A stretch of 55,754 nt of DNA, taken from positions 1 to 55,754 of the forward strand of contig JAIBAP010000040.1 in NCBI GenBank assembly GCA_019695115.1, given 5' to 3'. A program made the position numbers and the translations under genes. Under the pieces are notes generated by a model, which made no database searches, was not told the origin of the DNA, and saw nothing but the letters and a program-made list of their open reading frames with translations. Of the stretch, positions 18,541 through 51,448 are shown in pieces. This DNA is from Caldilineales bacterium. Lineage in GTDB: Bacteria; Chloroflexota; Anaerolineae; J102. Every line of letters begins with the position of its first letter. Positions within the stretch are counted from its first letter, which is position 1.

Positions 18541-19299
18541 TCAGCCAAAGCGGCCGGTGATGTAATCCTCGGTGCGCTGGTCCTTGGGACTGACGAACAA
18601 CTTGCCGGCCGCAGCCACCTCGATCAAGCTGCCGCTGAGCAGAAAACCAGCGCGGTCGGCCACGCGCGCGGCCTGCTGCACGCTGTGCGGGACCATGATC
18701 ACCGTGTAGCGGCTTTTGAGTTCCTGCAAGGTCTCCTCGACGGTGGCCGTCGACAGCGGGTCGAGGCCGGAGGTGGGGTTATCGAGCAGGATCACGTCCG
18801 GCTCCAGGGCCAGGCTGCGGGCCAGGCACAAACGCTGTTTCTGCCCGCCAGAGAGGGCGAAGGCCGACTCGTCCAGCCGATCCTTGACCTCGTCCCACAA
18901 GGCCGCCTGCTTCAACGAACGCTCCACCCGCTCCTCCAGCGTCGTCCGCTCCTTGATCCCGGCCATGCGCAGCCCGAAGGTCAGGTTGTTGCGGATCGAG
19001 CCGGGCAGAGGCGTGGGCAAGGCGAAGACCATGCTCACGCGGCGGCGGAGGTCGTTGACATCCATCGCCCGGGCGAAGATGTCCCGGCCGTCGAAGAGGA
19101 TGCCGCCCTGCACCCGGCCGCCTTCGGTCAGGTCAGCAAGCCGGTTCAGCAGCCGCAACAGGGTGGATTTGCCGCTGCGCGAGGGGCCAAAGAGCACGAA
19201 GATCTCGTGCGGCTGGATGGTCAGGCTGATGTTGCTCAGGGCTTCGACGCCGTCGGGGTAGGTGTAGAAAAGGTCGTGGATGGCGATGATCGGCTGCAT
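18541..19299 (-). CDS. PstB-like ABC ATPase with degenerate Walker B and Q-loop
   Basis: 252-residue PstB paralogue that ends in the family tail EDYITGRFG. Walker A is GPSRSGKST (38-46) and the signature LSGGQ (149-153) and His205 are intact. The Walker B catalytic Glu is replaced by Asn174 ([11 protein letters not shown]), and the Q-loop Gln is replaced by Ala93 ([10 protein letters not shown]). Such a subunit should bind ATP but hydrolyse it poorly on its own. Two ATPase genes in one pst operon are known in Firmicutes, but I know of no description of this motif split. ATG 19299 is used; GTG 19308, overlapping the pstA stop as GTGA, is an alternative start. Confidence 0.92.
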
Positions 19300-19304
19300 G
19301 GGCG

Positions 19305-20150
19305 TCACCAATCGCGGCGGCGGCGCATCGTGGTGCGGACAATCGTCGCCACCAGCGTCAACGAGAGGACGATGAGCATCAGCACCAGGGCCGTGCCATA
19401 TTGTACCTTCAGCGGCATCCCCGGCACCTGTGTGGAGATGACATAGAGATGATAGGGCAGGGCCATGGTCTGGTCGAAGATGGAACCCGGCAATTCGGGC
19501 AGATAGAAGGCCGCCACCGTGAACAGAATCGGGGCGGTCTCGCCGGCGGCGCGCCCCAGGCCGAGGATGATGCCGGTGAGGATGCCGGGCAGGGCGTGCG
19601 GCAGCACCTGGTGGCGGATGGTCTGCCATTTGGTGGCGCCGAGGCTGTAGCTCACCAGCCGGAAACTCTGCGGCACGGAGAGGATGGCCTCCTCGGAGGT
19701 GCTGATCACCACCGGCAGGGTGAGCAAGCCCAGCGTCAGCGCCCCGGCCACGATGCTGGTGCCCAAACCCAAGAAAAGGACGAACATCCCCAGCCCGAAC
19801 AAGCCGTAGACGATGGAGGGGATGCCGGCCAGATTGACGATGGCCAGCCGCACCCAGCGCGTCAGGCGGGTGTCGCCGGCATATTCGGCCAGGTAGATGG
19901 CGGCCAGGATGGCCAGCGGAAAGGCGGCGATGGCCGTGGCAAAGGTGAGGAGCAGCGTGCCCAGGATGGCCGGCATGATCCCGCCCTCCTTCATGCCATT
20001 GCGGGGGGCGGCGGTCAGGAACTCCCAACTCAGGGCGGAAAGGCCGTTCCACACCAGGAAGACAATCACCAGAATGACCGGGATCACCACCAGGGCCGCC
20101 ACCGCCGTGATCAACCCGGTCGCCAGCCGGTCGGCGCGCTGCCGGTTCAT
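19305..20150 (-). CDS. pstA: Phosphate ABC permease PstA
   Basis: 281-residue inner-membrane permease with about six helices. The family signature region is clear: NLAGIPSIVYGLFGLGMFV, then [39 protein letters not shown], the loop that contacts the ATPase. The ATG at 20150 overlaps the pstC stop (ATGA), so translation is probably coupled. It has the usual PstA length, unlike the second copy at 39725-40999, which has a long insert. Confidence 0.95.
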   Translation of the reverse strand: MNRQRADRLATGLITAVAALVVIPVILVIVFLVWNGLSALSWEFLTAAPRNGMKEGGIMPAILGTLLLTFATAIAAFPLAILAAIYLAEYAGDTRLTRWVRLAIVNLAGIPSIVYGLFGLGMFVLFLGLGTSIVAGALTLGLLTLPVVISTSEEAILSVPQSFRLVSYSLGATKWQTIRHQVLPHALPGILTGIILGLGRAAGETAPILFTVAAFYLPELPGSIFDQTMALPYHLYVISTQVPGMPLKVQYGTALVLMLIVLSLTLVATIVRTTMRRRRDW

Positions 20151-21094
20151 AGCTGCTCTCCTCGGCGGCGCGAGCTTTGCGAGCCGACGAAGCGCGCCGC
20201 CAACGAGTTGATGCCAAAGGTGACCAGGAACAGGAGGATGCCGATGGCGAACAGCGTGTTGTAGTGCAGGCTGCCCTGCTCCACCTCGCCCATCTCGGCG
20301 GCGATGGTGGCCGTCATCGTCCGCACCGGGGCGAAGAACATGCCCGGCCCCAGAGGGGGGAGGTTGGCGGCGTTGCCGGTCACCATCATCACCGCCATCG
20401 TCTCGCCGATGGCCCGGCCCACCCCCAACATGATGGCGATCACCAGCCCCGACCGCGCCGCCGGCAGCACCACCCGCCAGATCGTCTGCCAGCGCGTGGC
20501 GCCGATGGCCAGCGAGGCATCGCGATAGGAGCGCGGCACGGCATAGAGCGCATCTTCCGAGATGCTGATGATGGTGGGCAGCGACATATAGGCCAGGATG
20601 ACCGAGCCGGTGAAGGCGGTGAGGCCGGTGAGGGCGCCCATGCTCTGCACCAGCGGCGCCAGCGCCACCCAACCCAAAAAGCCCAGGACGATGGACGGGA
20701 TGCCGGCCAGCATCTCGATGATCGGTTTGAGGATCTCGCGCAGCCAGACCGGGGCGACCTCACCCAGATAGACGGCGGCCAGGATGCCGAGGGGGACGGC
20801 GATGACGACGGCGCCGACGGTGACGATGAGCGAGCCGACCAGCAAGGGCCAGAGGCCGAAAATGCCCTCGATGGGGTACCAGCGCGAGCCAAAAAGCTGG
20901 CGGAGGGGGATATCCAAAAAGGCGGGCAGGCCCTCGCGCAGCAAAAAAACGAAAATGAGGGCGATGATCACGATCGTCGAGATGCCGGCGACGACGATCA
21001 GCCCCTCGATCACGCGCTCGCGCCAGCGCAGCGGCGGGCGGGCGGGCTGCTCGGCCGTGGCCGAGACGGGCAACGATGATGGCGAGGTCGTCAT
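20147..21094 (-). CDS. pstC: Phosphate ABC permease PstC
   Basis: 315-residue partner permease of PstA. It has about six membrane helices, with EMLAGIPSIVLGFLGWVAL and SLAIGATRWQTIWRVVLPAARSGLVIAIMLGVGRAIGETMA as family landmarks. A hydrophilic N-terminal segment of about 25 residues precedes the first helix. It follows pstS after a 64-base gap and overlaps pstA by four bases. Confidence 0.95.
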   Translation of the reverse strand: MTTSPSSLPVSATAEQPARPPLRWRERVIEGLIVVAGISTIVIIALIFVFLLREGLPAFLDIPLRQLFGSRWYPIEGIFGLWPLLVGSLIVTVGAVVIAVPLGILAAVYLGEVAPVWLREILKPIIEMLAGIPSIVLGFLGWVALAPLVQSMGALTGLTAFTGSVILAYMSLPTIISISEDALYAVPRSYRDASLAIGATRWQTIWRVVLPAARSGLVIAIMLGVGRAIGETMAVMMVTGNAANLPPLGPGMFFAPVRTMTATIAAEMGEVEQGSLHYNTLFAIGILLFLVTFGINSLAARFVGSQSSRRRGEQL

Positions 21095-30312: not shown

Positions 30313-32535
30313 TTACTCGGCGGCCTTGACGTCAGCACCAACGATGGAATCCCAGCCTTCGGTGATCAACTTCTTGGCCGCGGCCTGCTGATCCAGGCTG
30401 GGGAAGGCGGCGCCCGAAACGTCCGGCAGCTTGGCCAGCAGGTCGGCGGGGATGACCCCGCGCGCCCGCATGTCGGCCTCACGGATGGGATGGCAATAGC
30501 CCTTCATCCATCCCAACTGCCCTTCGTCCGAGTACAGATACTCCATCCACAGCTTGGCGGCGTTCGGATGCGGCGCATAGGCGCTGATCGCCTGCAAGTA
30601 CACGCCGCCCAGCCGTCCGCTGGCAGGAATCACCGTCTCTACCGGCGGGTTGCCCTCGAAGCTGTCCGCCCCCGACAGCGCGTTGTAGTCCCAGGTGATC
30701 CGCACCGGCGTCTCACCCTTCGCCACCGTGCCGTTGTTGGCGATCACCGGCACCAGGTTCCCCGCCTGGTTCATCTGGGCAAAGTAGTCCAGACCCGCCT
30801 GCGCATCGTCCAACGAACCACCGTTCGCCAGCGCCGACGCATACACCGTCAGGATCGCCTGGTTCGAGGTGCGCGGGTCGCCCGACATCCCCACCGCCGC
30901 CGCAAACTCCGGCTTCAGCAGGTCGGCCCAGTCCTGCGGCGCTTCGGCAATGATGTCCTTGTTGACCATGAACGACAACACGCCGTAGTAGTCGCCGTAC
31001 CAGTACCCGTCCGCATCCTTCACCTCGTCCGGGATCGTGTCCCAGGTCGAGACCTTGTACGGCGCAATCAGCCCTTCCGCCTGCGCCTGCGGCCCAAACG
31101 AGAAGCCCACGTCGATCACGTCCGGCGCTTGCGGCCCTTTGTTGCCCTTGTTCGCTCGGATCGCTTCCACCTCGTCCCCCGAACCGGCGTCCGGGTTCAG
31201 TTCGTTCACCGTCAATCCGTACTTGGCCTTGAAACCTTCGATCACCTCGCCATAGTTGCACCAATCGTGCGGCAGGGCAATCGTCGTCAACTCCCCTTCC
31301 GCCTGTGCTGCTTTGATCAACTCGGCCATCGCGTCGGCGGCCGGGGCAGCCGGGGCGGCATCGGCGGCCTGGATGTTGGCGCCGACGACGGAGTCCCAGC
31401 CTTTGGTGATCACGTCTTTGGCCGCGGCCTGTTGCTCCAGGCTGGGGAAGGCGGCGCCCGAAACGTCCGGCAGCTTGGCCAGCAGGTCGGCGGGGATGAC
31501 CCCACGCGCCCGCATGTCGGCCTCGCGGATGGGATGGCAGTAGCCCTTCATCCACCCCAACTGCCCTTCATCCGAGTACAGATACTCCATCCACAGCTTG
31601 GCGGCGTTCGGATGCGGCGCATAGGCGCTGATCGCCTGCAAGTACACGCCTCCTAGCCGTCCGCTGGCAGGAATCACCGTCTCTACCGGCGGGTTGCCCT
31701 CGAAGCTGTCCGCCCCCGACAGCGCGTTGTAGTCCCAGGTGATCCGCACCGGCGTCTCACCCTTCGCCACCGTGCCGTTGTTGGCGATCACCGGCACCAG
31801 GTTCCCCGCCTGGTTCATCTGGGCAAAGTAGTCCAGACCCGCCTGCGCATCGTCCAACGAACCACCGTTCGCCAGCGCCGACGCATACACCGTCAGGATC
31901 GCCTGGTTCGAGGTGCGCGGGTCGCCCGACATCCCCACCGCCGCCGCAAACTCCGGCTTCAGCAGGTCGGCCCAGTCCTGCGGCGCTTCGGCGATGATGT
32001 CCTTGTTGACCATGAACGACAACACGCCGTAGTAGTCGCCGTACCAGTACCCATCCGCATCCTTCACCTCGTCCGGGATCGTGTCCCAGGTCGAGACCTT
32101 GTACGGCGCAATCAGCCCTTCCGCCTGCGCCTGCGGCCCAAACGAGAAGCCCACGTCGATCACGTCCGGCGCCTGCGGCCCTTTGTTGCCCTTGTTCGCC
32201 CGGATCGCTTCCACCTCATCCCCCGAACCGGCGTCCGGGTTCAGTTCGTTCACCGCCAAGCCGTACTTGGCCTTGAAACCTTCGATCACCTCGCCATAGT
32301 TGCACCAGTCGTGCGGCAGGGCAATCGTCGTCAACTCCCCTTCCGCCTGTGCTGCTTTGATCAACTCGGCCATCGGGTCGTTGGCGGCAGGCTCGGCAGG
32401 GGCGGCGGTCGGTTCGGGTGCGGCGGTGGGCTGCGCCGCGGGGGTGGCGGCGCCACCTCCACACGAGACCAGCATGGCCAGGACGACCAGCAGGGCGCTG
32501 AGGTGGAGCAGGCGGCGCTTGGTTCGGAATCTCAT
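30313..32535 (-). CDS. Tandem-duplicated extracellular solute-binding lipoprotein
   Basis: 740-residue lipoprotein with two nearly identical substrate-binding domains in one chain. The signal ends at Cys25 (MLVSC), and a Pro/Ala/Thr linker runs to residue 54. Copy 1 is about residues 55-402 and copy 2 about 403-740; the repeat distance is 1044 bases (348 codons). The copies differ by scattered synonymous changes, one Ala/Thr change (GLAVNE versus GLTVNE) and divergent ends, joined by ADAAPAAPAADA. Start ATG 32535 has AAGGAGG in front. Each domain belongs to the group binding Fe3+, polyamines or phosphonates. A single long frame and the divergent ends argue against an assembly error, which cannot be excluded. 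Confidence 0.88.
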   Translation of the reverse strand: MRFRTKRRLLHLSALLVVLAMLVSCGGGAATPAAQPTAAPEPTAAPAEPAANDPMAELIKAAQAEGELTTIALPHDWCNYGEVIEGFKAKYGLAVNELNPDAGSGDEVEAIRANKGNKGPQAPDVIDVGFSFGPQAQAEGLIAPYKVSTWDTIPDEVKDADGYWYGDYYGVLSFMVNKDIIAEAPQDWADLLKPEFAAAVGMSGDPRTSNQAILTVYASALANGGSLDDAQAGLDYFAQMNQAGNLVPVIANNGTVAKGETPVRITWDYNALSGADSFEGNPPVETVIPASGRLGGVYLQAISAYAPHPNAAKLWMEYLYSDEGQLGWMKGYCHPIREADMRARGVIPADLLAKLPDVSGAAFPSLEQQAAAKDVITKGWDSVVGANIQAADAAPAAPAADAMAELIKAAQAEGELTTIALPHDWCNYGEVIEGFKAKYGLTVNELNPDAGSGDEVEAIRANKGNKGPQAPDVIDVGFSFGPQAQAEGLIAPYKVSTWDTIPDEVKDADGYWYGDYYGVLSFMVNKDIIAEAPQDWADLLKPEFAAAVGMSGDPRTSNQAILTVYASALANGGSLDDAQAGLDYFAQMNQAGNLVPVIANNGTVAKGETPVRITWDYNALSGADSFEGNPPVETVIPASGRLGGVYLQAISAYAPHPNAAKLWMEYLYSDEGQLGWMKGYCHPIREADMRARGVIPADLLAKLPDVSGAAFPSLDQQAAAKKLITEGWDSIVGADVKAAE

Positions 32536-32794
32536 GGTTCTACCTCCTTGTAGATGCAGTGAGTGTGACAATCGATGAGTTGCGATGTACAGCCTGTTTG
32601 CTCTTTCCGGGCCGTCTCTACCCCGAACGACGCCGGGCAAGCGGGCGGAATGATAGCAGAGACGGGGGCGGACGTAAAATGCGCAAGCGGGGGGAGGGGC
32701 CGACCCCGCACGGGCGCAGCGCCAGGGCAGTGATCCAGGAAAATCCGGCCGCCGGGCGCAGCCGAGGGGCCTCGCGGCCAGGCCGGCGAGTGGA

Positions 32795-35700
32795 TCAGGG
32801 CCGGGGCTGCGCTGCGCCTGGGCGGATGGGCCGGCCAAGAGGAGACAGGCCGGGGCCTGGCCGGCGACGAGCGACGATGAGGCCCAGGGCCAGGCCGAGG
32901 CCAAGCGCCAGGGCCAGCAACCACAGTGGGCGGGACGCGGCGGGGGCGGCGTGCAGCCCGGCCAGGTGGATGGCGGTGGGGGTGAAGTTGAGGGTGTGGT
33001 CCTCGACTTCGCCGCCGGTGGCGCCGCCGGTAGGGGGCAGATTGGCGCTGGGACCGAGGGGGGCGACAGCCGGGGCGTTGGCCTGGGCGGCGGCCTGGGC
33101 GGCGGCCTCGGCCCCGGCCAGCAGGTGGCTGCCGCAAGCGCCGGGGACGACGCGCAAACGCAGGTTGTAGCTGCGCGGGTTGGGGGCGGCGCCATCGAAG
33201 ACGGTGGGGGCGGCCCAGGCGACCTGGAGCGCGGCAGCATTGGCGGCGGTGAAGGCCGGTGTGCTGGCCTCGCCGCTGTCGGCAAAGCTGTTGTTCTGGT
33301 TCCAGTCGATCCAGCCGTAGACGCAGGCGCCGCTCGCGCCCACACCGCGGACATCGACGGTGATGTAGCCGCCGCCGCTGGCCCAGTTGGGGTCGAGGCC
33401 GACGAAGCCGACCACCCCGTCGTCGGCCCCATCGCCGCCGGCGCTAGTCTCGCGCGACCAGGCGGCGCCCAGTCTGGGTGCGCCGCTGCCGGTGTGCCAG
33501 GCATCGCCATAGGCGGTATTCGTGCTGTGGTCGGGGTAGAGACCGAGGCCGATGAGCACGGGGTCGTGATCGGAGGAGCGGTAGGCATTGGCCTGGTACA
33601 AATTGGTGGCCGTGGGCTTGGCGTCGAAGCTCTGTTCGCCTGCGTCCTGGATGGTGTCGTTGTAATCCAGCAGATTGACCTCATCGGCGTTGATGTGCCA
33701 TTCGGCCAGACCCGTCACCTGCGATGTCAACGTGGCGCTGCTGAGGGCGTGATCCAGGTAGCCAAGCTGACCGTCGAAGACATAGCCGTAGCCGGAGGCC
33801 CCACCATAGCTGTTGACAAGGTCGGTGTAGCCAGCGCCAGTGATATTCGTGATCGCCGTATCCTTGCGATGAGAATTGAGGTCGCCAATGATCAGAAAGT
33901 CCGAGTCGCCGAGGCTGGAGGCAAGCGACGGCAGCCAGGTGTTCACCAAATAGGTGGCGCCCTTCTGCCGCGTGTCGCTCCAGCAGCTCTGGCCATCAAG
34001 CTGATCGAGGTCAGCGCCAGTAGCGTCCCCGCAGCCCTTTGACTTGAAATGATTGACCACCAGCGTGAACTGCTCACCCCAAACGTTTTCCTGGAAAGTC
34101 TGCGCCACCGCCGGGCGGCTGCGCTGTGTGCCGGTGCCGTTGGGGTCGGTGAACGCGGCGGCGGTGAGCGTCTGCACCGCGCCCACCGGCGTCACCTTGC
34201 CGGGCTTGTAGAGGATGCCCACCGTGATCTGGTCGGTGCCCACGACCCCGGTGTTGATGTAGTCGTAGACGCCGGCGCCGGCAACAGCATTCAGCTTGCT
34301 CACCAGGTCGGCGATGGCCGTGCCATTGTTCTCGATCTCCATCAAACCGATTACATCTGCATCCAACCCGGTGATCGCAGCGACGATCTTGTCGGATTGC
34401 CGCGTAAACTCCGCCGCCGAATTCGCTCCACGCACATTGATGGTGGTGAAGTAGTTCAAAACGTTGAAACTGGCGACCTTGATGTTGCCGGTGACAGAGG
34501 GGGCCGACGGACGCGGGTTGCCGGAGGTGAAGGCGTAGCTGAAGGCCGCAGTGACAGGCCGGATGCGCCAGGCGTCGGTGCCGGTGAGACCGGCAAAGGA
34601 GTAATGCAGCACACCGGTGAGATCGGTGATGGTGTCGCCGCCACGGAAGTAGTTCGTGGTGCTGAAGCCGTCGGGCGCGGGATGGAAGACCGGGATGTCG
34701 GGATTCTCCATCAGGGCGTGGTTCTGCTGATTGCTGTCGTCATCCAGGATGACGATACGCCGGGCCAAGTCGATTTGGTGGGCGGTGTAGCCAGAGGTCG
34801 ATGGCGAACTGGTATCGGTGAGCTGGCGGAAGCGGCCGCCCTGGGCCAGCACCACCTGCCCATAGCGGAACAACTCGAAGTATTCGGTCACGCTCAAGGT
34901 CGTTGGGAACTTCACCAGCATCCCCTCGAACGGCTCGTAATAGGCGTCGATCTGCGCGGTCGCGCCAGCCAGATCGGTGGCGGTGACGCCGGGCACAGGC
35001 AGGGTGAGTGATGCCGGCGTGGGCAGCGTATTGCCGCTGCTGAGCACCACCACCGCGCCCGCTGTCGTGGCGTTCAACTGACTGTTGCTGAAGTACTCGC
35101 TCGAAGCGCCCGTTACCTGCACCTTGTCACCCACGGTGACATCGGTGGGGCACGTCTGGCAGTAGACAAAGATGCCCTCGGAGGTGGCGGCATTGCCATC
35201 GGCATCTCCATCCTCCTCCTGGATGAAAAAGCCGTCCAGCTTGAAGTCGTCGACCCCGGTCACGCCCTGGAAGTCGCCGATGACGATAGCCTCGACCGTG
35301 AATGTGCCGGCGTTGGCGGTGCTGCCGCTGCCCTGAACGTCATGAATCTTGCTGAGGGACACGGTTGTTGGCGTTGCTGTGGGTGTCGGCGTCGCTGTGG
35401 GCGTGGGCGTCGGCCCAGACGTCGGCGTCGCTGTGGGTGTGGGCGTCGGCCCAGCGGCGTAATCTGTCATCTCAAAATCATCTACCATCAACCGCTCACC
35501 GCTGGTTTTACTAATACGAATGATGATATCGTCAGCGGAATCAGCCCCATTTGAGGCATTGATCGTGCCCGACACCTGTTTCCAGTCACTGGAACCTAGC
35601 CATGTGTTGTTGATAGTTTGTACTGTTGTCCATGATAAGCCATTATTCGTGCTGTACTCAACGACATAGATCGGCTCGGGCGAGGAATCCCAACGTCGTA

Positions 35701-37111: not shown

Positions 37112-38233
37112 TTACAAAGCGGTCAGCACCGACGCCAACCAGCCAGCAAGGGCGCCGCCCAACACCAGCCAGGCCGCGTTGAGACGAAAACGGAAGAAAA
37201 GAACCCCGCCAACGAGCAGCAACAACCACGCCTGCCAGGTCGTCAGCGTCAGGCGACCCAGATTCCAGGCCACCACCAACATCAGCGCCACCGCACTCAC
37301 CGTCACCGCATCCAGAAAAGCCGCCATCCAGGGCGAGCGACGCAGCCGGGGGACGAGCGGGTTGAGCGCCCAGACGAAAAAGAACGAGGGCAAGAAGATG
37401 GCCACCGTGGCCACGACCGCCCCCTGCCACCCGGCCACGACATAGCCGACGAAGGTGGCCGTGCTCAGCAGCGGGCCGGGGGTGAACTGGCCGACGGCGA
37501 TGGCGTCGATCAGCTGCTGCTCGCTCAGCCAGCCCAGGTTCTGCACCAGCCCGCCCTGCAAAAAGGCGTACAACACATAGCCGCTGCCATAGAGCACACT
37601 GCCGATGAACAAGAAGTAGGCGCCCACCTGCCACAGCGGCACGGCCCCACCCACAGCCAACGGCAAAGCCAGCGCCGGCGCCAACGCAGACCGCTCGCGG
37701 GCCGCCTGCCACCGCAGCCAGACCATGCCCAGCAGCCCACCGGCAAACAGCGCCGCCACCTCGTTCAGCCCGGCCAGCGCCGCCGCCGCCACCGCCAGGC
37801 CAATCCCCAGCAGCGACCCATTCTTGACCGCCGACCGGCCCAGCTTCCACACCGCCGCCAGGATGATGACGATGACGACCGGCCGCGTCCCCCACAGCAG
37901 CCGCTCCACCTGCGGCAGACCGCCAAAACGGACGTAGAACCAGGCGATCAGCCCGGTGATCAGCGCCGCCGGCAGGATGAAACTGGCCCCCGCCACCACC
38001 AGGCCCGGCAGCCGGGCGCGGGTGAAGCCCACGTGCATCGTCATCTCGGTCGAGTTGGGGCCGGGGATCAGATTCGTGGCCGCCATCAGGTCGAGGAAAT
38101 GCGCCCGCTCCAGCCAGCCGCGACGGGTCACCACCTCATCCTCCATCATGGCGATGTGCGCCGCCGGGCCGCCAAAGCCGGTGACGCCCAGCTTGAGGAA
38201 CACGGCTGCCAGCTCACCCAGCCGCGAGCTCAT
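37112..38233 (-). CDS. chrA: Chromate transporter ChrA (two-domain form)
   Basis: 373-residue membrane protein with two homologous halves of about six helices each, the long-chain CHR form. Signatures are GFGGPAAHIAMM near residue 18 and the PGPNSTEMTMHVG motif in the first half, and GQFTPGPLLSTATFVGY in the second. ChrA expels chromate using the proton gradient. ATG 38233 overlaps the arsC stop by four bases. The longer frame would run through arsC. Confidence 0.93.
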   Translation of the reverse strand: MSSRLGELAAVFLKLGVTGFGGPAAHIAMMEDEVVTRRGWLERAHFLDLMAATNLIPGPNSTEMTMHVGFTRARLPGLVVAGASFILPAALITGLIAWFYVRFGGLPQVERLLWGTRPVVIVIILAAVWKLGRSAVKNGSLLGIGLAVAAAALAGLNEVAALFAGGLLGMVWLRWQAARERSALAPALALPLAVGGAVPLWQVGAYFLFIGSVLYGSGYVLYAFLQGGLVQNLGWLSEQQLIDAIAVGQFTPGPLLSTATFVGYVVAGWQGAVVATVAIFLPSFFFVWALNPLVPRLRRSPWMAAFLDAVTVSAVALMLVVAWNLGRLTLTTWQAWLLLLVGGVLFFRFRLNAAWLVLGGALAGWLASVLTAL

Positions 38234-38670
38234 CCGTCCACCCTCATCGCCCCGTCCTGCCGCGCCGCCAGGTAGCCGACCAGCCGCCGGCGGATGTCGT
38301 CGCGCGCCTGCCGGAACACGGCCATCTGCTCGGCCAGGCTCCCGCTCGCCTTGGCCGGGTCGGGGAAGCCGATATGAGCCACCTGGCCCTGGCGCAGCCA
38401 TAGCGGGCAATTTTCGGCGGCGTCATCGCAGACGGTGATCACCAGATCGAAGTGAGCGTCCAAGAACTCATCGAGCGATTTCGAGCGCGCCTCGGCGATG
38501 TCGATACCGATCTCGGCCAGGACGCGCACAGCCAGGGGGTGAACGAAGCCGGCCGGCTCGGTGCCGGCCGAAACCGCATCCCAGCTGTTGGCGAGGTCAT
38601 GGTTGACCAGGGCCTCGGCCATCTGGCTGCGGCAAGAGTTGCCGGTGCAGAGAATGAGGACGGTGGGCAT
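38230..38670 (-). CDS. arsC: Arsenate reductase, low-molecular-weight phosphatase type (ArsC)
   Basis: 146-residue enzyme that starts [29 protein letters not shown] is the P-loop CX5R with the nucleophilic Cys. The pair in CDDAAENCP supplies the relay Cys residues of thioredoxin-coupled ArsC, and FPDPAK provides the late Asp. It reduces arsenate to arsenite. The position between a phosphate importer, which also takes in arsenate, and chrA fits oxyanion detoxification. No arsenite efflux gene is in the window. A tyrosine phosphatase role is less likely given the Cys pair. Confidence 0.9.
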
Positions 38671-38678
38671 GGTGGGGG

Positions 38679-38841
38679 GATTGGAGATTGGGGATTGGGG
38701 ATTGGAGATTGGTTATTGGAGATTGGTTATTGGAGATTGGTTATTGGAGATTGGTTATTGGAGATTGACACGCACCACGGAACACGAAACACGCACCACG
38801 GAACACGCATCACGGAACACGAAACACGCAACACGGAACAT
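38679..38841. repeat. GGAGATTGG and ACGGAACACG short repeat tracts
   Basis: About ten degenerate copies of GGAGATTGG/GGTTATTGG run from 38679 to 38768, followed by CACGGAACACGAAACACGCAC units to about 38841. They lie upstream of the arsC start and belong to the same families as the repeats at 7.3 kb and 53.9 kb. Confidence 0.85.
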
Positions 38842-38880
38842 AATCGCACACTGTGATCACATAGCCAAAATGCACCTTCT

Positions 38881-38936: not shown

Positions 38937-39725
38937 TCACCCAAACCGGCCGGTGATGTAATCCTCGGTCACGCGGCTCTTGGGCAGCGTGAACAACTCT
39001 TTGGTCGGCGCGAACTCTTCCAGATAGCCGGTGCGTTCGGGCGTGACGGTGAAGAAGGCGGTGAAGTCCGACACCCGCGATGCCTGCTGCATGTTGTGAG
39101 TGACGATGATGATGGTGTAGTTCTGCGTCAATTCACGCATCAGTTCTTCGATGCGCAGGGTGGCGATAGGGTCGAGGGCAGAACATGGCTCGTCCATAAG
39201 GATGATGTCGGGTTGGACGGCGATGGCGCGGGCGATGCACAGCCGCTGTTGCTGGCCGCCAGACAGGGAATAGCCGCTCTGCTTGAGCTTATCCTTGACC
39301 TCATCCCAAAGCGCCGCCCCGCGCAGCGCCTCCTCGACCAGATCATCCATCTTGCCCTTGAAGCCATTGATCTTGGCGCCCCAGGCCACGTTTTCGTAGA
39401 TGCTCTTGGGGAAAGGGTTCGGCTTCTGGAAGACCATGCCGATGCGCCGCCGCACCTGCACAGCATCCACATCGGCGTCGTAGATGTTCATGCCGTGGAA
39501 CAGAACCTCACCCTTGCTGCGGGCGATGGGGATCAGGTCGTTCATGCGGTTGAAGGCCCGCAACACCGTGCTCTTGCCACAGCCCGAAGGCCCGATCAGA
39601 GCCGTGATCTTGCGGCGCTCGATCTTGAGCGTGATGTCCTTGACGGCGTGAAAACCACCGTAATAGACGTTGAGAGCGGTCGCCTCGATGGCGTGGCGGC
39701 CGTTGCTTGCGACGGCATTTTCCAT
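38937..39725 (-). CDS. pstB: Phosphate ABC ATPase PstB (canonical)
   Basis: 262-residue ATPase with every catalytic motif intact: Walker [11 protein letters not shown]-loop VFQKPNPFP, signature LSGGQQQR, Walker [11 protein letters not shown] and H-loop VTHNMQQ. It ends in EDYITGRFG, as PstB proteins do. As the only ATPase of this operon it should work as a homodimer, in contrast to the two unlike ATPases at 17760-19299. The ATG at 39725 shares one base with the pstA stop. Confidence 0.95.
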
Positions 39726-40999
39726 CAGCCTGAACTCCGTGAATAGCGATTGCGCAGCCAAATGGCGGTGGCATTGAGGGCGAGCAGCAGCGCCAACAAC
39801 ACCAGGATGGCCGCTGCTGCCAGGTTGCGGAACTCCTCCTGAGGCCGGGAAGTCCACTGGTAGATTTGAGCGGGCAAGGTCGTGAATTTGGCGAAGGGGC
39901 TGTCGGGATCGACGACGATGAAGGTGGAGACGCCGACCACGATCAACGGCGCCGTCTCGCCAAAAGCGCGCGAGACCGAGAGGATGACGCCGGTGAGGAT
40001 GCCGGAGATGGAACTGGGCAGAACATGGTGCCACACCGTCTGCCACTTCGTCGCCCCCAGGCCGTAGCTGGCCTCGCGCAGGCTGCGCGGCACCGCCCGG
40101 ATGGCCTCGCGGGCATTGATGATCACCAGCGGCAGGATGAGCAGCCCCAGCGTCAGCCCGGCCGAGAGGATGGTGCGACCGTTGGCCGTGGAAGGGTCGC
40201 CGACGCCGAAGATCAGCCCACTGGTCAGCGGCCCCAGATAGCGCACGAACACGGCCAGGCCCAACATGCCGTAGATGATCGAGGGCACGCCGGCCAGGTT
40301 GTTGATGTTGGTCTCGATGATCTGATCGAAACGACTGCCGCGCGTGTACTCCTCCAGATAGATGGCCGCCGCCGCGCCCAACGGCACAGCCAGCAAGAAG
40401 GCGATCAGCGTCACCAACAGCGAACCGAGGATGGCCGTGCGGATGCCGGCGTGGGTGGGGTCGGAGGATTGCGGCGAGGTGATGAAATCCCAGCTCACCC
40501 AGCTGCGGAACTCGAGCGTGGCGTTGGCAATAGCGGCAGCCTCGGCCTCGATCTCGGCCCGGTGGAAGAGCGACTCGGCCAGGGTCCAGGTCGCGACGAT
40601 CTTCGGCTCGATCACCTCCGCCTGCACCAGTTCCACCAGCTCGGGCTGGGTGCGTTCGACCAGCGTCTGTGTGGCTGCAAGGGCGCGCAGACGCCCCTTC
40701 GACACGTTGGCCTGCAAAATCGCGATCAACTCGGCGGCGGAGAGTTCGGACAACGAGGTCGCGCCAGTGGATGAGGAGGCAAGCAGCGAGGTCGGCTCGA
40801 TTGCGTTCTGATAGGCCACGTAGCCAAAGGCATCGTTGGCGACATCGATCAGCAAGACGGCCAGGGCCAGGATGCCGGCCAACGTCGACAAAAAGAAAGC
40901 GCTGCGCCAGACCGTCCCCCAGCGGCGGCGACGACGCACGAAGGCTGTGTAGTCTGCGCCTGCGGGATAGCGGCCTGCGGGCTGCGAATCGGCGGCCAT
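39725..40999 (-). CDS. pstA: Phosphate ABC permease PstA with long N-terminal insert
   Basis: 424-residue PstA, about 140 residues longer than the copy at 19305. The extra part lies between the first helix (about 32-55) and the second: it is hydrophilic and helical ([13 protein letters not shown] to [13 protein letters not shown]), probably periplasmic, and reminiscent of the N-terminal extra domain of some PstA proteins. The core is normal: [18 protein letters not shown] and [39 protein letters not shown]. Start ATG 40999 lies two bases after the pstC stop. Confidence 0.93.
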
Positions 41000-41001
41000 G
41001 C

Positions 41002-41997
41002 TCAATACTCCTGGCGGAAGCGGCGCACGATCCAGCGGCTGATGATGTTGAGGATCATGGTGATGAGGAAAAGCATCAAGGCGATGGCAAAGATGCTGTC
41101 GTAATCGATCGAGTCGTAACTGAGGTCGCCGCCGCTGATGCGGACGATGTGGCCGGTCATGGTCTCGGCGGCCTTGAAAGGATTGAGGAAGCTCAGGCCG
41201 CTCAAGGCCTGGCCCCAACTGGCGAAATTACGCGGGCCGGAGCCGGCGGCAATCGCCACCACCATCGTTTCGCCGATCGCTCGCGACATGGCGACGATGA
41301 AGGCCGCGGCCAGGCCAGAGATGGCGGCCGGCAGCACCACGCGCACGGCCGTCTCCAGCCGGGTGGCGCCGATGCCAAAGGCAGCCTCGCGCAGGGCGCG
41401 CGGCACGGCGCTGAGGGCGTCCTCGCTCATCGAACTGACCAGCGGGATGATGAGGATGCCGATGACGATGCCGGCCGAGGCCACGTTGAAGACCTCCACC
41501 CGGTCGGCGCCGAAAATCGTTTGCAGAAGTGGGGTCACGAAGCCCAGGGCAAAGAAGCCATAGACCACGGTGGGGATGCCGGCCAGGACTTCGAGCGTGG
41601 GTTTGAGGAAGCTGCGGGCGCGAGCCGAGGCATATTCGCTCAGGTAGATGGCGATCATCAGACCCAAAGGCAATGCCACCAACATGCCGATGAGACTGGT
41701 GAGCAAGGTGGCATCGAAGAGGGCGAAGATGCCGAACTGACCGATTTGCGGCTGCCAGGCCGTGCCGGTGAGGAATTCCAGCACCGAGGCTTCGGGCCGG
41801 GCGAAGAAGCGGTAGGCATCGACGGCAAGGACGAGCACGATGCCGATGGTGGTGAAGACCGAGACCAGCCCGGCCAGCCACAGCAGCACCTGGATGATCT
41901 GCTCGCCCAGGCGACGCCGCCGGCGCAGGTCGATCTCGTCGCCGGTCCTGGCGTTGGCGGCGCCTGCGGCCCGCAGGCTGGTGAATTCACGTTGCAT
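41002..41997 (-). CDS. pstC: Phosphate ABC permease PstC
   Basis: 331-residue permease with six helices. The motifs [19 protein letters not shown] and [39 protein letters not shown] identify PstC. A 35-residue basic N-terminus precedes the first helix. ATG 41997 is used; the frame is open to 42030, but that start would fall close to the hairpin that separates pstS from pstC. Confidence 0.94.
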
Positions 41998-42022
41998 GGT
42001 GGCGTGCTCAGAAAAAGGGGGA

Positions 42023-42053
42023 GACCCCAAGGGTTTGCGAAACCCTTGGGGTC
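42023..42053 (-). terminator. Hairpin and T-rich tract between pstS and pstC
   Basis: GACCCCAAGGGTTT and AAACCCTTGGGGTC (14-bp perfect arms, 3-base loop). On the - strand it is followed by CTCCCCCTTTTTC, which resembles a leaky terminator or 3'-end stabiliser. This would give more binding protein than permease, as in many ABC operons. Confidence 0.65.
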
Positions 42054-42066
42054 GGGTCTGTCTCTG

Positions 42067-43143
42067 TTACTGGCCGGTAGTGGTCAGCCAGGTTTGTCGG
42101 GCCTGTTCAAGGGACTCTTGCGAGGCGGGAAAGTATCCCACTTTGGCGATCACATCGTTCACCCGGCTCAGAACGAAGTTGAGAAAGGCCGCCACCTGCG
42201 GCTTGCCTTTCATTACGCCCGCGTCCGAGTACATGAACAACGGCCGCGCCAGCGGGTACTCGCCCGCATCCACCGTCTCGGCGCTCGGCGACACGCCATC
42301 GATGGGGGCGTCCTTCAACCTGCTGGCGTTCTCCTCGAAGTAGGCATAGCCAAAGTAGCCGATGGCATACTTGTCGCCTTCTACACCCTGCACCAACACA
42401 TTGTCATCTTCCGACAACTGCAGGTTCGCTGCCCCCAGCAACTGCTGCTCGCCCTTGCCATTGTCAGCTTCCTTGTCCACCACATAGACGGGATCCATCA
42501 CCACCTCGACGAAGTAATCGAACGTCCCCGAATCCGTCCCTGGGCTGAAGCGTTTGATCGGCGCCGCCGGCCAGGCCGGGTTCACATCCGACCAGTTCGT
42601 CGCCTCCGACGAGAACAGTTTCGCCAATTCCGCCTTTGTGATCCCTTCTGGGCCAATCCAGTCATTGGCAGGATTCACCACCACCGCCAGGGCGTCGGTG
42701 CCGATCTTGAACTCGACCGGCTGGCGCGGCGGGGTCAGCTGCCCGCAACTCTCGATCTCGCTCTCCTTGATCGCCCGCGAGGCATTGGAGATGTCCGTCT
42801 CTCCCGCCTTACAGAAGCGTTCGAACCCGGCCCCGGAACCAATCGAGTCGATCGTGATGTTGCCCGCGTACCCTTCGTCAACGAACAACTCGGCCAGCGC
42901 CTCGGCCAAGGGGTACACCGTCGAGCTACCGGCGGCGATGATGTCGCCCTTCACTTCCAGCGGGTTCACCTCCGGCAGCGTCGCGCCGCCAGCCGGCGCA
43001 GCGGTGGGTTCAGGGGCCTGGGTCGGCTCAGGGGCCTGGGTGGGTGCGACAGTGGGCGCCGGCGTCGAACCGCCGCCACAGGCTGACAGCACGAGGCTGG
43101 CTACAACCAGAAGACCGAAAAGGATCAGTAGACTACGTTTCAT
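42067..43143 (-). CDS. pstS: Phosphate-binding lipoprotein PstS, second type
   Basis: 358-residue lipoprotein; lipobox VLSAC with Cys22, then a Pro/Thr/Ala linker. The binding protein has AAGSSTVYPLAEAL, SIGSGAGFERFCKAGETDISNASR and SPGTDSGTFDYFVE, which supply the phosphate ligands of the family. It is of the longer PstS/SphX-like type and starts the operon pstS-pstC-pstA-pstB. GGAGGAG precedes ATG 43143. A candidate Pho box lies about 150-200 bases upstream. Confidence 0.95.
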   Translation of the reverse strand: MKRSLLILFGLLVVASLVLSACGGGSTPAPTVAPTQAPEPTQAPEPTAAPAGGATLPEVNPLEVKGDIIAAGSSTVYPLAEALAELFVDEGYAGNITIDSIGSGAGFERFCKAGETDISNASRAIKESEIESCGQLTPPRQPVEFKIGTDALAVVVNPANDWIGPEGITKAELAKLFSSEATNWSDVNPAWPAAPIKRFSPGTDSGTFDYFVEVVMDPVYVVDKEADNGKGEQQLLGAANLQLSEDDNVLVQGVEGDKYAIGYFGYAYFEENASRLKDAPIDGVSPSAETVDAGEYPLARPLFMYSDAGVMKGKPQVAAFLNFVLSRVNDVIAKVGYFPASQESLEQARQTWLTTTGQ

Positions 43144-43457
43144 TTCTCCTCCAGAGAAGGTGGGACTATGTCCCGGTTGGGGTGCGCCGCTCAAGACGCT
43201 GTCGGTAACGGCGCTGTCGGTAAGGGCGTTGTCTGTGAAATTTCTTGCAAGCATGACGATAGCACAGCCGCCGCCCCCTGTCTTCAAGCCGCTGTTAATT
43301 TCCCATCAAGTTTCATTAACGACCGCCTCAAGCTTTCTTAACCTGTCCGGTCCGCGCCGGCAGCCCGCGCTTGACGCCGCCCGCAAGCGTGGTATCATGC
43401 GCGTGTGGCCCGAATCGCAGGCCAACGACTTTTCCTTCCCCGCCAGGAGACGCAAAC
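43144..43457. other. Divergent intergenic region between pstS and a toxin-antitoxin pair
   Basis: 314 bases. It holds two direct copies of CGCTGTCGGTAA near 43198-43226, the Pho-box-like array at 43294-43342 and AGGAG at 43445-43449 for the next gene. The promoters of both operons should be here. Confidence 0.6.
43294..43342 (-). promoter_or_regulatory. Pho-box-like array of 11-base repeats upstream of pstS
   Basis: On the - strand five elements follow one another: GTTAAGAAAGC, TTGAGGCGGTC, GTTAATGAAAC, TTGATGGGAAA, TTAAC. The TTAA/TTGA cores repeat every 10-12 bases. This is the layout of PhoB/PhoP direct-repeat operators, with cores on one face of the helix. The consensus is not identical to that of E. 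coli or Bacillus. Confidence 0.6.
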
Positions 43458-49167: not shown

Positions 49168-49608
49168 TCAGTCATCACGCACAATCACGATCTCAGGCTC
49201 GATAGTGACTTCGCTCTTGACCGAATTGGCCACCAGGCTGTATTTCTGCGCCGCTTCCAGCGCCCGGCGCACGCGCTTTTCGTCAGCGCCGCGCACCACG
49301 ATCTCTGGGAACAGACGCAGGTGGGTGAAGGACTCGGTGCGGTCGAGTTCCACGCGCTTCGTCCCCTCGGCCCGGCAGGCATAGCTGACCAGGTCGAGCT
49401 TGAAGCGCTGGCAGGCCCAGAGGAACATCATCATGATGCAGGTGTTGGCAGCGGCGACGAAGGCATGTTCGGGGGTCAGCACGCCTTCGTGCCCGTAGGC
49501 GTCGGGCGGAGCCGAGAACGCCATCTCCGGCCCGTTGCCCAGCCTGAGATGGCCCCAATGCTCCCCTCGCCATTCCACATCCGTCACATAGCTTGCAGTT
49601 TGCGCCAT
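49168..49608 (-). CDS. OsmC-family protein lacking the usual second catalytic Cys
   Basis: 146-residue OsmC/Ohr-fold protein. Cys57 (AAANTCIMMM) is at the position of the peroxidatic Cys. Where peroxidase members have Cys in KYCPV, this protein reads KYSLVANSV with Ser124, so the standard two-Cys peroxidase cycle looks impossible; Cys66 and Cys78 are extra. It ends an operon with two DGC-domain proteins, a GcvH-like lipoyl protein and an ArsR regulator. A role in thiol or persulfide chemistry is possible. ATG 49608 is used; a GTG at 49626 is the alternative. Confidence 0.85.
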   Translation of the reverse strand: MAQTASYVTDVEWRGEHWGHLRLGNGPEMAFSAPPDAYGHEGVLTPEHAFVAAANTCIMMMFLWACQRFKLDLVSYACRAEGTKRVELDRTESFTHLRLFPEIVVRGADEKRVRRALEAAQKYSLVANSVKSEVTIEPEIVIVRDD

Positions 49609-49628
49609 ACCGATCCGCTTCCTCACTC

Positions 49629-50171
49629 TCAGGCCAACACCAGGTCGATGGCCTGGGCCAGGATGGCAGCACCCCGGCCACAGGCGCAGCCGCCGGTCGG
49701 GCCAGAAACAGGCGGCGCCTCGACCTGCAATTCGATCACCTCGCCCCGCGCCCGGCTCCAGCGCACCGCCAACAGCTCGTCCACTGTTGCCGCCAGCGCC
49801 CCGGCCAAGGCCTCGACCACCTGTCGCCCGCCCTCATCCAGCCGTCGCAGGTCGCCTGGTTGTGGCAGACCGTGCTCGGCCACGAAATCGGAGACGACGA
49901 AACTGGCCGCCGGTTTGTGGCTGTACAACTCGGTCGCCCTGGCTGCGCAGCGCTTCTCGCAGCCATCGACGGCAATCGTCGGGTAGAAACGGGCAAAAGC
50001 CCGATCGCCCTCGCCGCCAGCCAGGAAAAGCGGCAGACAAAGCGTGGTCGTTTCACCGGGGCGCAAGTCTTCCAGCAGCCGCAACGCCGCCACCCGCGTG
50101 ACCAATCCCTCCGGCATTTCTTCGCCCGAACAGGCGATGACGCCCACCTTGCGTTGTGGCAGATCAGGCAT
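49629..50171 (-). CDS. DGC-domain putative zinc-binding protein
   Basis: 180-residue protein of the DGC family (putative zinc-binding). Landmarks are GVIACSGEEMPEG (Cys14), Cys45, the family signature D69-G70-C71 in VDGCEKRC with Cys75, and a C-terminal GGCACGRG. The cysteines are arranged to bind a metal or carry sulfur. Function is not established for the family. AGGAGGAG precedes ATG 50171. It overlaps the upstream DGC gene by eight bases and the OsmC gene follows closely. Confidence 0.82.
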   Translation of the reverse strand: MPDLPQRKVGVIACSGEEMPEGLVTRVAALRLLEDLRPGETTTLCLPLFLAGGEGDRAFARFYPTIAVDGCEKRCAARATELYSHKPAASFVVSDFVAEHGLPQPGDLRRLDEGGRQVVEALAGALAATVDELLAVRWSRARGEVIELQVEAPPVSGPTGGCACGRGAAILAQAIDLVLA

Positions 50172-50577
50172 GGTCTCCTCCTGCTGGCGGCAGCGCATCA
50201 CAGAGCAGGGCGATCTCCTCGCCCAGGGCTTGCGCCAGGGCCAGGCCGCCCTCGTTCAGTTCGGCGATGCCCTGCGGTTTCAAGTCGCGATGCTGGCGGT
50301 AGAAATCCAGGATGGCGTAGGACTTGACCACCTGACCGCCCGCCTGTTGCACGTTCACGGTGGCGCAGGCCAGCTTGCAGCCATCCAATGTGATCGCGCC
50401 GGCCTGGCGCACGGTCGCGCACGCCTCTTCATCGCCCAACACCAGCAGCGATAGTGGCACGATCTGTGTGCTATCGGGGCGCAACTCCGCCGCCACATAG
50501 GCGGCCTCGCGGGTCACAGTGCCATAGGTTTTGCCGATGCCGCTGCACGGGATCAGCACCAGACGTGGGTCGCTCAT
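50164..50577 (-). CDS. DGC-domain putative zinc-binding protein, shorter form
   Basis: 137-residue DGC-family protein. It has VLIPCSGIGKTYG (Cys11), Cys53, D65-G66-C67 in LDGCKLAC and Cys71. It is a paralogue of the next gene but lacks its Cys-rich tail. ATG 50577 overlaps the GcvH-like stop (ATGA), so the two are translated together. The two DGC proteins may form a heteromer. No enzymatic role is known. Confidence 0.82.
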   Translation of the reverse strand: MSDPRLVLIPCSGIGKTYGTVTREAAYVAAELRPDSTQIVPLSLLVLGDEEACATVRQAGAITLDGCKLACATVNVQQAGGQVVKSYAILDFYRQHRDLKPQGIAELNEGGLALAQALGEEIALLCDALPPAGGDHA

Positions 50578-51014
50578 GCCGCTGCCTCCGCTTGCGCCGT
50601 CATCACCCGCAGATAGGCCGGGGCGTCGAGGAGGCCGGGGATGGGCCAGACGTCCGGCTTTAGCTCGACCAGCCAGCCATCGCCATAGGGATCCTGATTG
50701 ATTCGTTCGGGCGCCTCGGCCAGGCCCTCGTTCACGGCGGTGATCAGCCCGGCGCAGGGCGAGACCAGGCCGACATCGACCTTGACTGTCTCGATCGTTG
50801 CCAGCTCCTCCCCGGCCTCGACCCGACGACCGGCAGGCGGCAGCTCGAGGAAGGCAATATCGCCGCTGGATTGCTGCCTGAAGTCGGTCAAGCCGATGCG
50901 GACAGCGCCGGCGTCGCCCACCGGCGCCAGCCACAGACCGGCGTCGGTGTACCAGCAATCGGCCTTGACCCGAAAGATGAACTTAGCGATGGTTGCCTGC
51001 AGAAAAGCGGTCAT
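50574..51014 (-). CDS. GcvH-like lipoyl-carrier protein
   Basis: 146-residue H-protein-like lipoyl domain. The lipoate-attachment Lys is K78 in ATIETVKVDVGLVSPCAG. The N-terminal half contains RIGLTDFRQQSSGDIAFLELPPAG, as in GcvH. A longer N-terminal segment includes Cys20 and two Trp. No gcvT, gcvP or lpd lies nearby, and its partners are DGC and OsmC-type thiol proteins. This recalls lipoate-binding proteins of bacterial sulfur oxidation (LbpA), but no Hdr-like genes are here. Confidence 0.85.
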   Translation of the reverse strand: MTAFLQATIAKFIFRVKADCWYTDAGLWLAPVGDAGAVRIGLTDFRQQSSGDIAFLELPPAGRRVEAGEELATIETVKVDVGLVSPCAGLITAVNEGLAEAPERINQDPYGDGWLVELKPDVWPIPGLLDAPAYLRVMTAQAEAAA

Positions 51015-51026
51015 CGTGCTCCTTTC

Positions 51027-51374
51027 TCAAACGGTGGGCTGGCATTTCGGACAGTTGCAGCCGGGGATGCTGCCGCGCGCCACCAGGGCGAGGTCGCCCG
51101 CCGCCCGCGCCGGCCCGAAGGCGGCGTCGAGTTGGCGGACGATGCGTTCGTCCGCCACCCGGTAGAAGACGTTGTTGCCCTCTTTGTCGTCGCTGATCAG
51201 CCCGGCGTTGCGTAACACGGCCAGTTGTTGTGAGACATAGGGCTGTGGCTTGCCCAACACCGCCGACAGATGGCAGACGCATTCGCTCTCCCGGCGCAGC
51301 AGGTCGAGGATTTGCAGGCGCATGGGATGGGCCATCAGTTTGAGGAGGTGGGCTTGTTCGCGATACGGGTTCAT
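51027..51374 (-). CDS. ArsR-family regulator with thiol-rich sensor
   Basis: 115-residue winged-helix repressor. The recognition region is VLGKPQPYVSQQLAVLRNAGLIS. Cys32 and Cys34 in ECVCHL are at the position of the ELCVCDL metal/thiol site of ArsR. A C-terminal GCNCPKCQ adds Cys106, Cys108 and Cys111. It could sense As(III), Cd or a reactive sulfur species. ATG 51374 is chosen because the promoter boxes (51386-51414) lie upstream of it; an ATG at 51404 would be before the -10 box. It is 12 bases before the GcvH-like gene, so it heads the operon. Confidence 0.88.
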   Translation of the reverse strand: MNPYREQAHLLKLMAHPMRLQILDLLRRESECVCHLSAVLGKPQPYVSQQLAVLRNAGLISDDKEGNNVFYRVADERIVRQLDAAFGPARAAGDLALVARGSIPGCNCPKCQPTV

Positions 51375-51382
51375 AGGGAAAC

Positions 51383-51414
51383 GTCTATATAGACATTCTT
51401 GCATATTCTAGCAA
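51383..51414 (-). promoter_or_regulatory. Promoter with palindromic operator over the -10 box
   Basis: On the - strand a -35 TTGCTA (51414-51409), a 17-base spacer and a -10 TATATA (51391-51386). The perfect palindrome GTCTATATAGAC (51383-51394) covers the -10 box, the expected place for ArsR-type repression. The leader before ATG 51374 is very short. Confidence 0.7.
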
Positions 51415-51430
51415 CAAGCTTTGGCGCCGG

Positions 51431-51448
51431 ATATGACGCGCGTCATAT
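51431..51448. promoter_or_regulatory. Perfect 18-bp palindrome upstream of the arsR promoter
   Basis: ATATGACGCGCGTCATAT is a perfect palindrome, 17 bases upstream of the -35 box. It is unlike the -10 palindrome, so it may bind a second regulator. Confidence 0.65.

Follow-up and report, generated by a model that had tools for sequence, protein, structure and literature searches.

An ArsR-GcvH-DGC-DGC-OsmC operon conserved across several phyla, and its possible role in lipoyl-based arsenic detoxification

What does a protein resembling the H-protein of glycine cleavage do in an operon that starts with an ArsR-type repressor? The question is raised by a 55,754-nt stretch of a Caldilineales bacterium (contig JAIBAP010000040.1), which is called the window here. 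A sequence-only reading had described a unit of five genes, encoding ArsR, a lipoyl-carrier protein, two DGC-domain proteins and OsmC, and had proposed a thiol, persulfide or soft-metal relay that uses lipoate as carrier. The minus strand indeed encodes all five proteins, each with a strong Pfam match, and, as that reading stated, no further glycine cleavage gene was noticed in the window. The operon and its upstream region contain the following features:

51431..51448, no strand: perfect 18-bp palindrome ATATGACGCGCGTCATAT, TGAC-N4-GTCA, FNR/CRP-like
51383..51394, no strand: perfect 12-nt palindrome GTCTATATAGAC, between a -10-like box and the probable ArsR start
51027..51404, minus strand: ArsR/SmtB repressor (Pfam HTH_5, 55 bits; NF033788, 84.8 bits, cut-off 55)
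50574..51014, minus strand: GcvH-like lipoyl-carrier protein (Pfam GCV_H, 91 bits)
50164..50577, minus strand: DGC1, DGC-domain protein (Pfam DGC)
49629..50171, minus strand, reading frame open from 50201: DGC2, DGC-domain protein (Pfam DGC)
49168..49626, minus strand, probable start 49608: OsmC variant (Pfam OsmC, 49 bits)

The Pfam DGC (PF08859) scores of the two DGC proteins are 57.1 and 42.8 bits, both above the gathering cut-off of 27. GcvH and DGC1 overlap by 4 nt, DGC1 and DGC2 by 8 nt, and the remaining gaps in the operon are 2 and 12 nt. The OsmC start was moved to the ATG at 49608 because relatives place it there, and comparison with locus L019 indicates that ArsR probably starts at ATG 51374, 3' of the 12-nt palindrome. 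The palindrome GTCTATATAGAC has a single copy in the whole 6.0-Mb genome and is a candidate ArsR operator. The scan of the operon upstream region gave no consensus sigma-70 promoter; therefore, the -10-like box TAGAAT (51405-51410) was assigned by eye. The centre of ATATGACGCGCGTCATAT sits 29 nt before TAGAAT, a spacing that would be as at an FNR/CRP class II activator site. Sites of the form TGAC/TGAT-N4-GTCA/ATCA were found 5' of GcvH 15 times in 62 loci, against an expectation of about 4.4 derived from the flanks of those loci. The lipoyl lysine of the GcvH-like protein is K78 (codon 50781-50783), and it is present in 63 of 63 relatives. The repressor carries a CVC motif at the DNA-binding helix and a C-terminal GCNCPKC, and in relatives most ArsR proteins encoded nearby likewise have a CVC-type motif. 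The CVC motif of E. coli-type ArsR binds As(III). The earlier statement that every protein has a conserved Cys pair or a lipoyl lysine is correct for K78 but not for all of the proteins, given that ArsR has the CVC motif and the cysteine-rich tail in place of a classic pair, and OsmC has lost the canonical resolving cysteine.

Using DGC2 in a genome scan, we collected 67 loci; because the loci were found via DGC2, the counts below describe conservation of the neighbourhood and not abundance. The complete set GcvH-DGC1-DGC2-OsmC is co-directional and contiguous in 47 of the 67 loci, and 13 further loci, 11 of them from Bacillota, contain GcvH-DGC1-DGC2; no OsmC gene was found beside GcvH-DGC-DGC in the Bacillota loci. 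The remaining seven loci, which have no GcvH, are interrupted by a contig edge or by Ns. Thus, the gene order, whose restriction to this genome would have spoken against a functional unit, is conserved in several phyla, far beyond chance. The hosts belong to Chloroflexota, Acidobacteriota, Aminicenantes, Desulfuromonadia, Bacillota and archaea, and include the cultured Acetobacterium species, Clostridium tepidiprofundi and Ornatilinea apprima. Of 301 genomes sampled evenly from the phylum, six contained any DGC protein and three, including that of the window, contained the operon, which is therefore sporadic. The copies from archaea and from Desulfuromonadia are nested among the others in the tree, and this suggests horizontal transfer of the operon. 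Several genomes have two operon copies (L024/L031, L034/L038 and L035/L041).

The neighbours of the operon were clustered without prior labels, and then checked by profile and phmmer searches. Among the 67 loci, an ArsE-type thioredoxin was found in 48, an ArsC-family protein in 21, ACR3 in 17, dihydrolipoyl dehydrogenase in 15, ArsD in 13 and ArsA in 12. An ACR3-like gene lies within approximately 8 kb of the operon in 15 of 45 genomes, compared to about 0.1 expected by chance, an expectation that is this low because there are only about 26 above-cut-off ACR3 copies across all 45 genomes, given genome size; it should be noted that the lineages compared are not all independent. Several observations count against an arsenic function. 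Of the 45 genomes, 18 gave no ACR3 match whatsoever and 25 gave none over the cut-off, the flanks recovered for about half of the loci contain none of ACR3, ArsA, ArsC and ArsD, and the ArsC-family matches score under the NCBIfam cut-off. Moreover, the linkage can be the result of hitch-hiking, because ars genes cluster with many stress genes.

Gene fusions bear on the same question. In Acetobacterium (L069), GcvH is preceded by a DGC domain in the same polypeptide, this fusion is followed by DGC1 and DGC2, and in some Acetobacterium species DGC2 is followed by dihydrolipoyl dehydrogenase (461 aa, TIGR01350, 514 bits), ArsA and ArsD. In an Aminicenantes locus (L061), an ArsC-family domain with a CX5R loop and a C..C pair is in frame with GcvH in one open reading frame, which scores 112 bits for TIGR02691 and 111 bits for GcvH. 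The same fusion occurs in L059, with a masked stretch, whereas in L063 the ArsC-family protein and GcvH are encoded by separate adjacent genes. Both loci with an ArsC-GcvH fusion are from MAGs. Because fused proteins are interspersed with unfused ones in the tree, the fusion may have two separate origins. Fusions of this kind point to a functional connection of the lipoyl protein with DGC and with an enzyme of the arsenate reductase type.

Other genes were also seen beside the operon. A radical SAM/SPASM protein adjoins it in 20 loci, e.g., L052 (1950-3203), and is related to maturases of tungsten-cofactor oxidoreductases (297 bits, below the cut-off of 380). A small protein with a CVCTGKC motif and a ferredoxin adjoin the Bacillota DGC-GcvH units (L074, 6070-6450; L075, 6485-6856; and relatives); this small protein is HdrA-like by eye and had no Pfam or NCBIfam match.

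The window's own genome yielded no exporter of the ACR3, ArsB or ArsP_1 type. Two window genes are relevant here:

38230..38670, minus strand: ArsC-family (LMW-PTP type) protein with a CTGNSCR loop and a VCDDAAENC pair (127 bits, NCBIfam cut-off 174.3)
37112..38233, minus strand: ChrA-type chromate efflux transporter, overlapping the arsC-like gene (TIGR00937, 293 bits, cut-off 171.7)

The arsC-like gene is 10.5 kb from the operon on the same strand, and is a possible pathway partner outside of it. This gene is directly downstream of an ABC cluster (38937-43287) that looks like PstSCAB, the phosphate uptake type. Since the genome has no exporter of these three types and only this arsC-like gene, an arsenic function in the window's organism is deduced from relatives. 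A second PstSCAB-looking cluster is located at 18541-21094, short tandem repeats CAATCTCCAATAAC and GTGTTCCGTG lie at 38680-38850, before the arsC-like gene, and one open reading frame at 30313-33684 (minus strand) contains two nearly identical tandem ABC substrate-binding domains, the result of a duplication or of an assembly effect.

Our leading interpretation, which we hold tentatively and at somewhat less than even confidence, is that the operon encodes a module under ArsR control that acts in arsenic (soft-metalloid) detoxification through a lipoyl dithiol. The set often adjoins ars genes and is twice fused to an arsenate-reductase-type enzyme; therefore, it probably represents a branch of arsenic defence that is based on lipoate and, as far as searched, undescribed. 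The GcvH-like protein would be lipoylated on K78, and the lipoyl arm would be recharged to the reduced form by the dihydrolipoyl dehydrogenase of the cell; the window's genome has one clear gene for this enzyme. The reduced arm would then serve as a swinging dithiol for DGC1, DGC2, the OsmC variant and, where present, the ArsC-type reductase. Such a relay would supply electrons for the reduction of arsenate or organoarsenicals and keep As(III)-reactive thiols reduced, and the As(III) product would pass to ArsA/ACR3-type export where such export exists. Lipoylation, the direction of electron flow and arsenic as the substrate are all putative, as are As(III) as the signal that de-represses ArsR and any part that the operon plays in the window's organism. 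Thioredoxin-type ArsC depends on a dithiol from outside to reduce its C..C pair. We favour a lipoyl dithiol relay because of this need, because lipoylated proteins reduce Ohr, and because dihydrolipoyl dehydrogenase is near in 15 loci. The lipoate-carried relay of the sequence-only reading gains from the invariant lysine and cysteines, from the DGC-GcvH and ArsC-GcvH fusions and from the nearby dihydrolipoyl dehydrogenase genes, and stands as a partly supported proposal. Of its three options, thiol, persulfide or soft metal, the neighbours point mainly to arsenic, and a partner for persulfide oxidation (Hdr) is absent beside most copies.

The main rival is carriage of As(III) on the lipoyl dithiol, which may coexist with the redox relay. 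Vicinal dithiols bind As(III) with high affinity. The reduced lipoyl dithiol would bind As(III) as a cyclic dithiolate and hand it to the three-cysteine sites of DGC1 and DGC2, and from there to a pump or to storage, with redox being secondary. The cysteines fit such a chaperone or sink: C11, C67 and C71 are near-invariant in DGC1, as are C14, C45, C71 and C75 in DGC2, which additionally has C162-A-C164. ArsA and ArsD genes are among the neighbours (12 and 13 loci, respectively), and an ArsC-GcvH fusion would hand As(III) on directly. However, ArsD, the known chaperone, is already encoded in some loci, the linkage to dihydrolipoyl dehydrogenase and the OsmC partner indicate redox cycling, and As(III) binding by GcvH or DGC is only putative; we rate carriage as the principal function as unlikely, though worth serious consideration. 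Structure adds the following on the DGC proteins. The AF2 model of DGC1 (pLDDT 92.8) is flavodoxin/Rossmann-like, and its fold search returned nothing at E<=0.001, the best Z of 7.7 being one that chance folds also reach; the rows for ArsC (2cd7) and ArsH in this search were not used as evidence. Searches with DGC2 gave no match among PDB sequences and none among plasmids. The window's DGC2 does not have the C-terminal approximately 60 residues, including a YN-x-IP motif, found in most relatives. A third DGC-like protein is encoded near the operon in L029 (9615-10007), L042 (9207-9587) and L054 (11097-11489); that of L029 starts with CTCSCSC.

Less probable still is a sulfur or persulfide relay, in which the lipoyl arm would carry sulfane sulfur and ArsR would sense persulfide like SoxR/sHdrR. 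The precedent is sHdr-LbpA sulfur oxidation (PMC10332631), which shares a dedicated GcvH-like lipoyl carrier outside central metabolism and has ArsR-type regulators in its field, ArsR-type sensors of sulfane sulfur being known; TauE-like, CcdA and thioredoxin neighbours of the operon also fit. Both kinds of gene that the earlier reading named as possible companions, lipoate ligase and Hdr-like genes, occur in the window's own genome, as two lipoate ligase/transferase (LplA/LipB-type) genes and one cluster on contig C7 that looks like sHdr. The locus in question (L008, C7 6001-26000) encodes DsrE, ferredoxin/CCG proteins, EtfAB, three different LbpA-like proteins and an LplA-type ligase. Against the sulfur relay, this separate cluster encodes LbpA-like proteins of its own, HdrB/HdrC families do not recur among the neighbours of the operon, small HdrA-like proteins of Bacillota notwithstanding, and ars genes dominate the neighbourhood. 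Furthermore, in a GcvH tree of 78 rows, with few columns and some long branches, the 60 GcvH proteins from operons group in a single clade (support 100/98) apart from both the canonical GcvH and the LbpA-like rows. Membership in LbpA was dropped on account of the clade and of the HdrB/HdrC result.

A lipoyl-dependent peroxide defence, with OsmC as the enzyme, GcvH as its reductant and the DGC proteins as accessories, has little probability. Lipoylated proteins serve as reductants of Ohr (PMC5962072), and the operon shares with these peroxidases the lipoyl partner, the peroxidatic cysteine position (C63) and the OsmC fold, which is confirmed by the match to 2onf_A (E 3.9e-13, TM 0.78-0.84). In contrast to them, the position of the OsmC/Ohr resolving cysteine is occupied by serine (Ser130 in the window) in 56 of 56 OsmC relatives, a new cysteine, C84, is nearly invariant along with C63, the regulator is ArsR and not OhrR, and no OsmC gene turned up beside GcvH-DGC-DGC in the Bacillota loci. 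Finally, a spare H-protein of glycine cleavage is hardly credible: the operon protein has the GCV_H domain and the lipoyl lysine, but it belongs to the separate clade, scores 91.3 bits against the gcvH equivalog cut-off of 115.85 and has no P- or T-proteins beside it, whereas contig C102 of the same genome, one of whose five GcvH-like proteins this is, carries a complete gcvT-gcvH-gcvPA/PB set with its own GcvH, so the candidate was dropped. Service in glycine cleavage encoded elsewhere, which would have spoken against the sequence-only reading, is thereby disfavoured.

Two further comparisons place the operon among known systems. It resembles ars operons with a thioredoxin-type arsenate reductase (ArsC pI258 type, ACR3, ArsA/ArsD, ArsE-type thioredoxin) in its ArsR control, in the CVC motif of the sensor and in the neighbour genes themselves; unlike them, it adds the lipoyl carrier, the two DGC proteins and the OsmC variant, shows the ArsC-lipoyl fusion in two MAGs and, in the window, has no pump. 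The Tso selenoprotein set, represented in NCBIfam by TsoR, GcvH_rel_desulf and TsoA/B/C (PMC13188914), likewise combines an ArsR-family regulator with a GcvH-related protein, TsoB being DsbD-like, but has LULAXC/rhodanese selenoproteins where the operon has DGC proteins. Membership in this set was dropped, the scores being 39.5 bits for TsoR (cut-off 115) and 35.6 bits for GcvH_rel_desulf (cut-off 150). Our literature searches covered open-licence PMC text, a scope that most subscription papers lie outside, and yielded no account of the operon; as far as searched, it is undescribed.

Lipoate is a classic victim of arsenic. If our interpretation is correct, a lipoyl protein has been recruited into arsenic defence. 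It is conceivable, although we lean somewhat against it, that a dedicated lipoyl carrier is a third reductant or carrier of arsenic detoxification beside thioredoxin and glutaredoxin, which reduces the ArsC-type reductase and DGC and/or carries As(III), among bacterial and archaeal anaerobes from several phyla. This would provide a testable role for the DGC family, now described as "putative zinc-binding" and with no solved relative found, and also for two clades that carry other annotations at present, glycine cleavage in the case of GcvH and peroxidase in that of OsmC. A GcvH annotation is, by itself, no proof of glycine cleavage.
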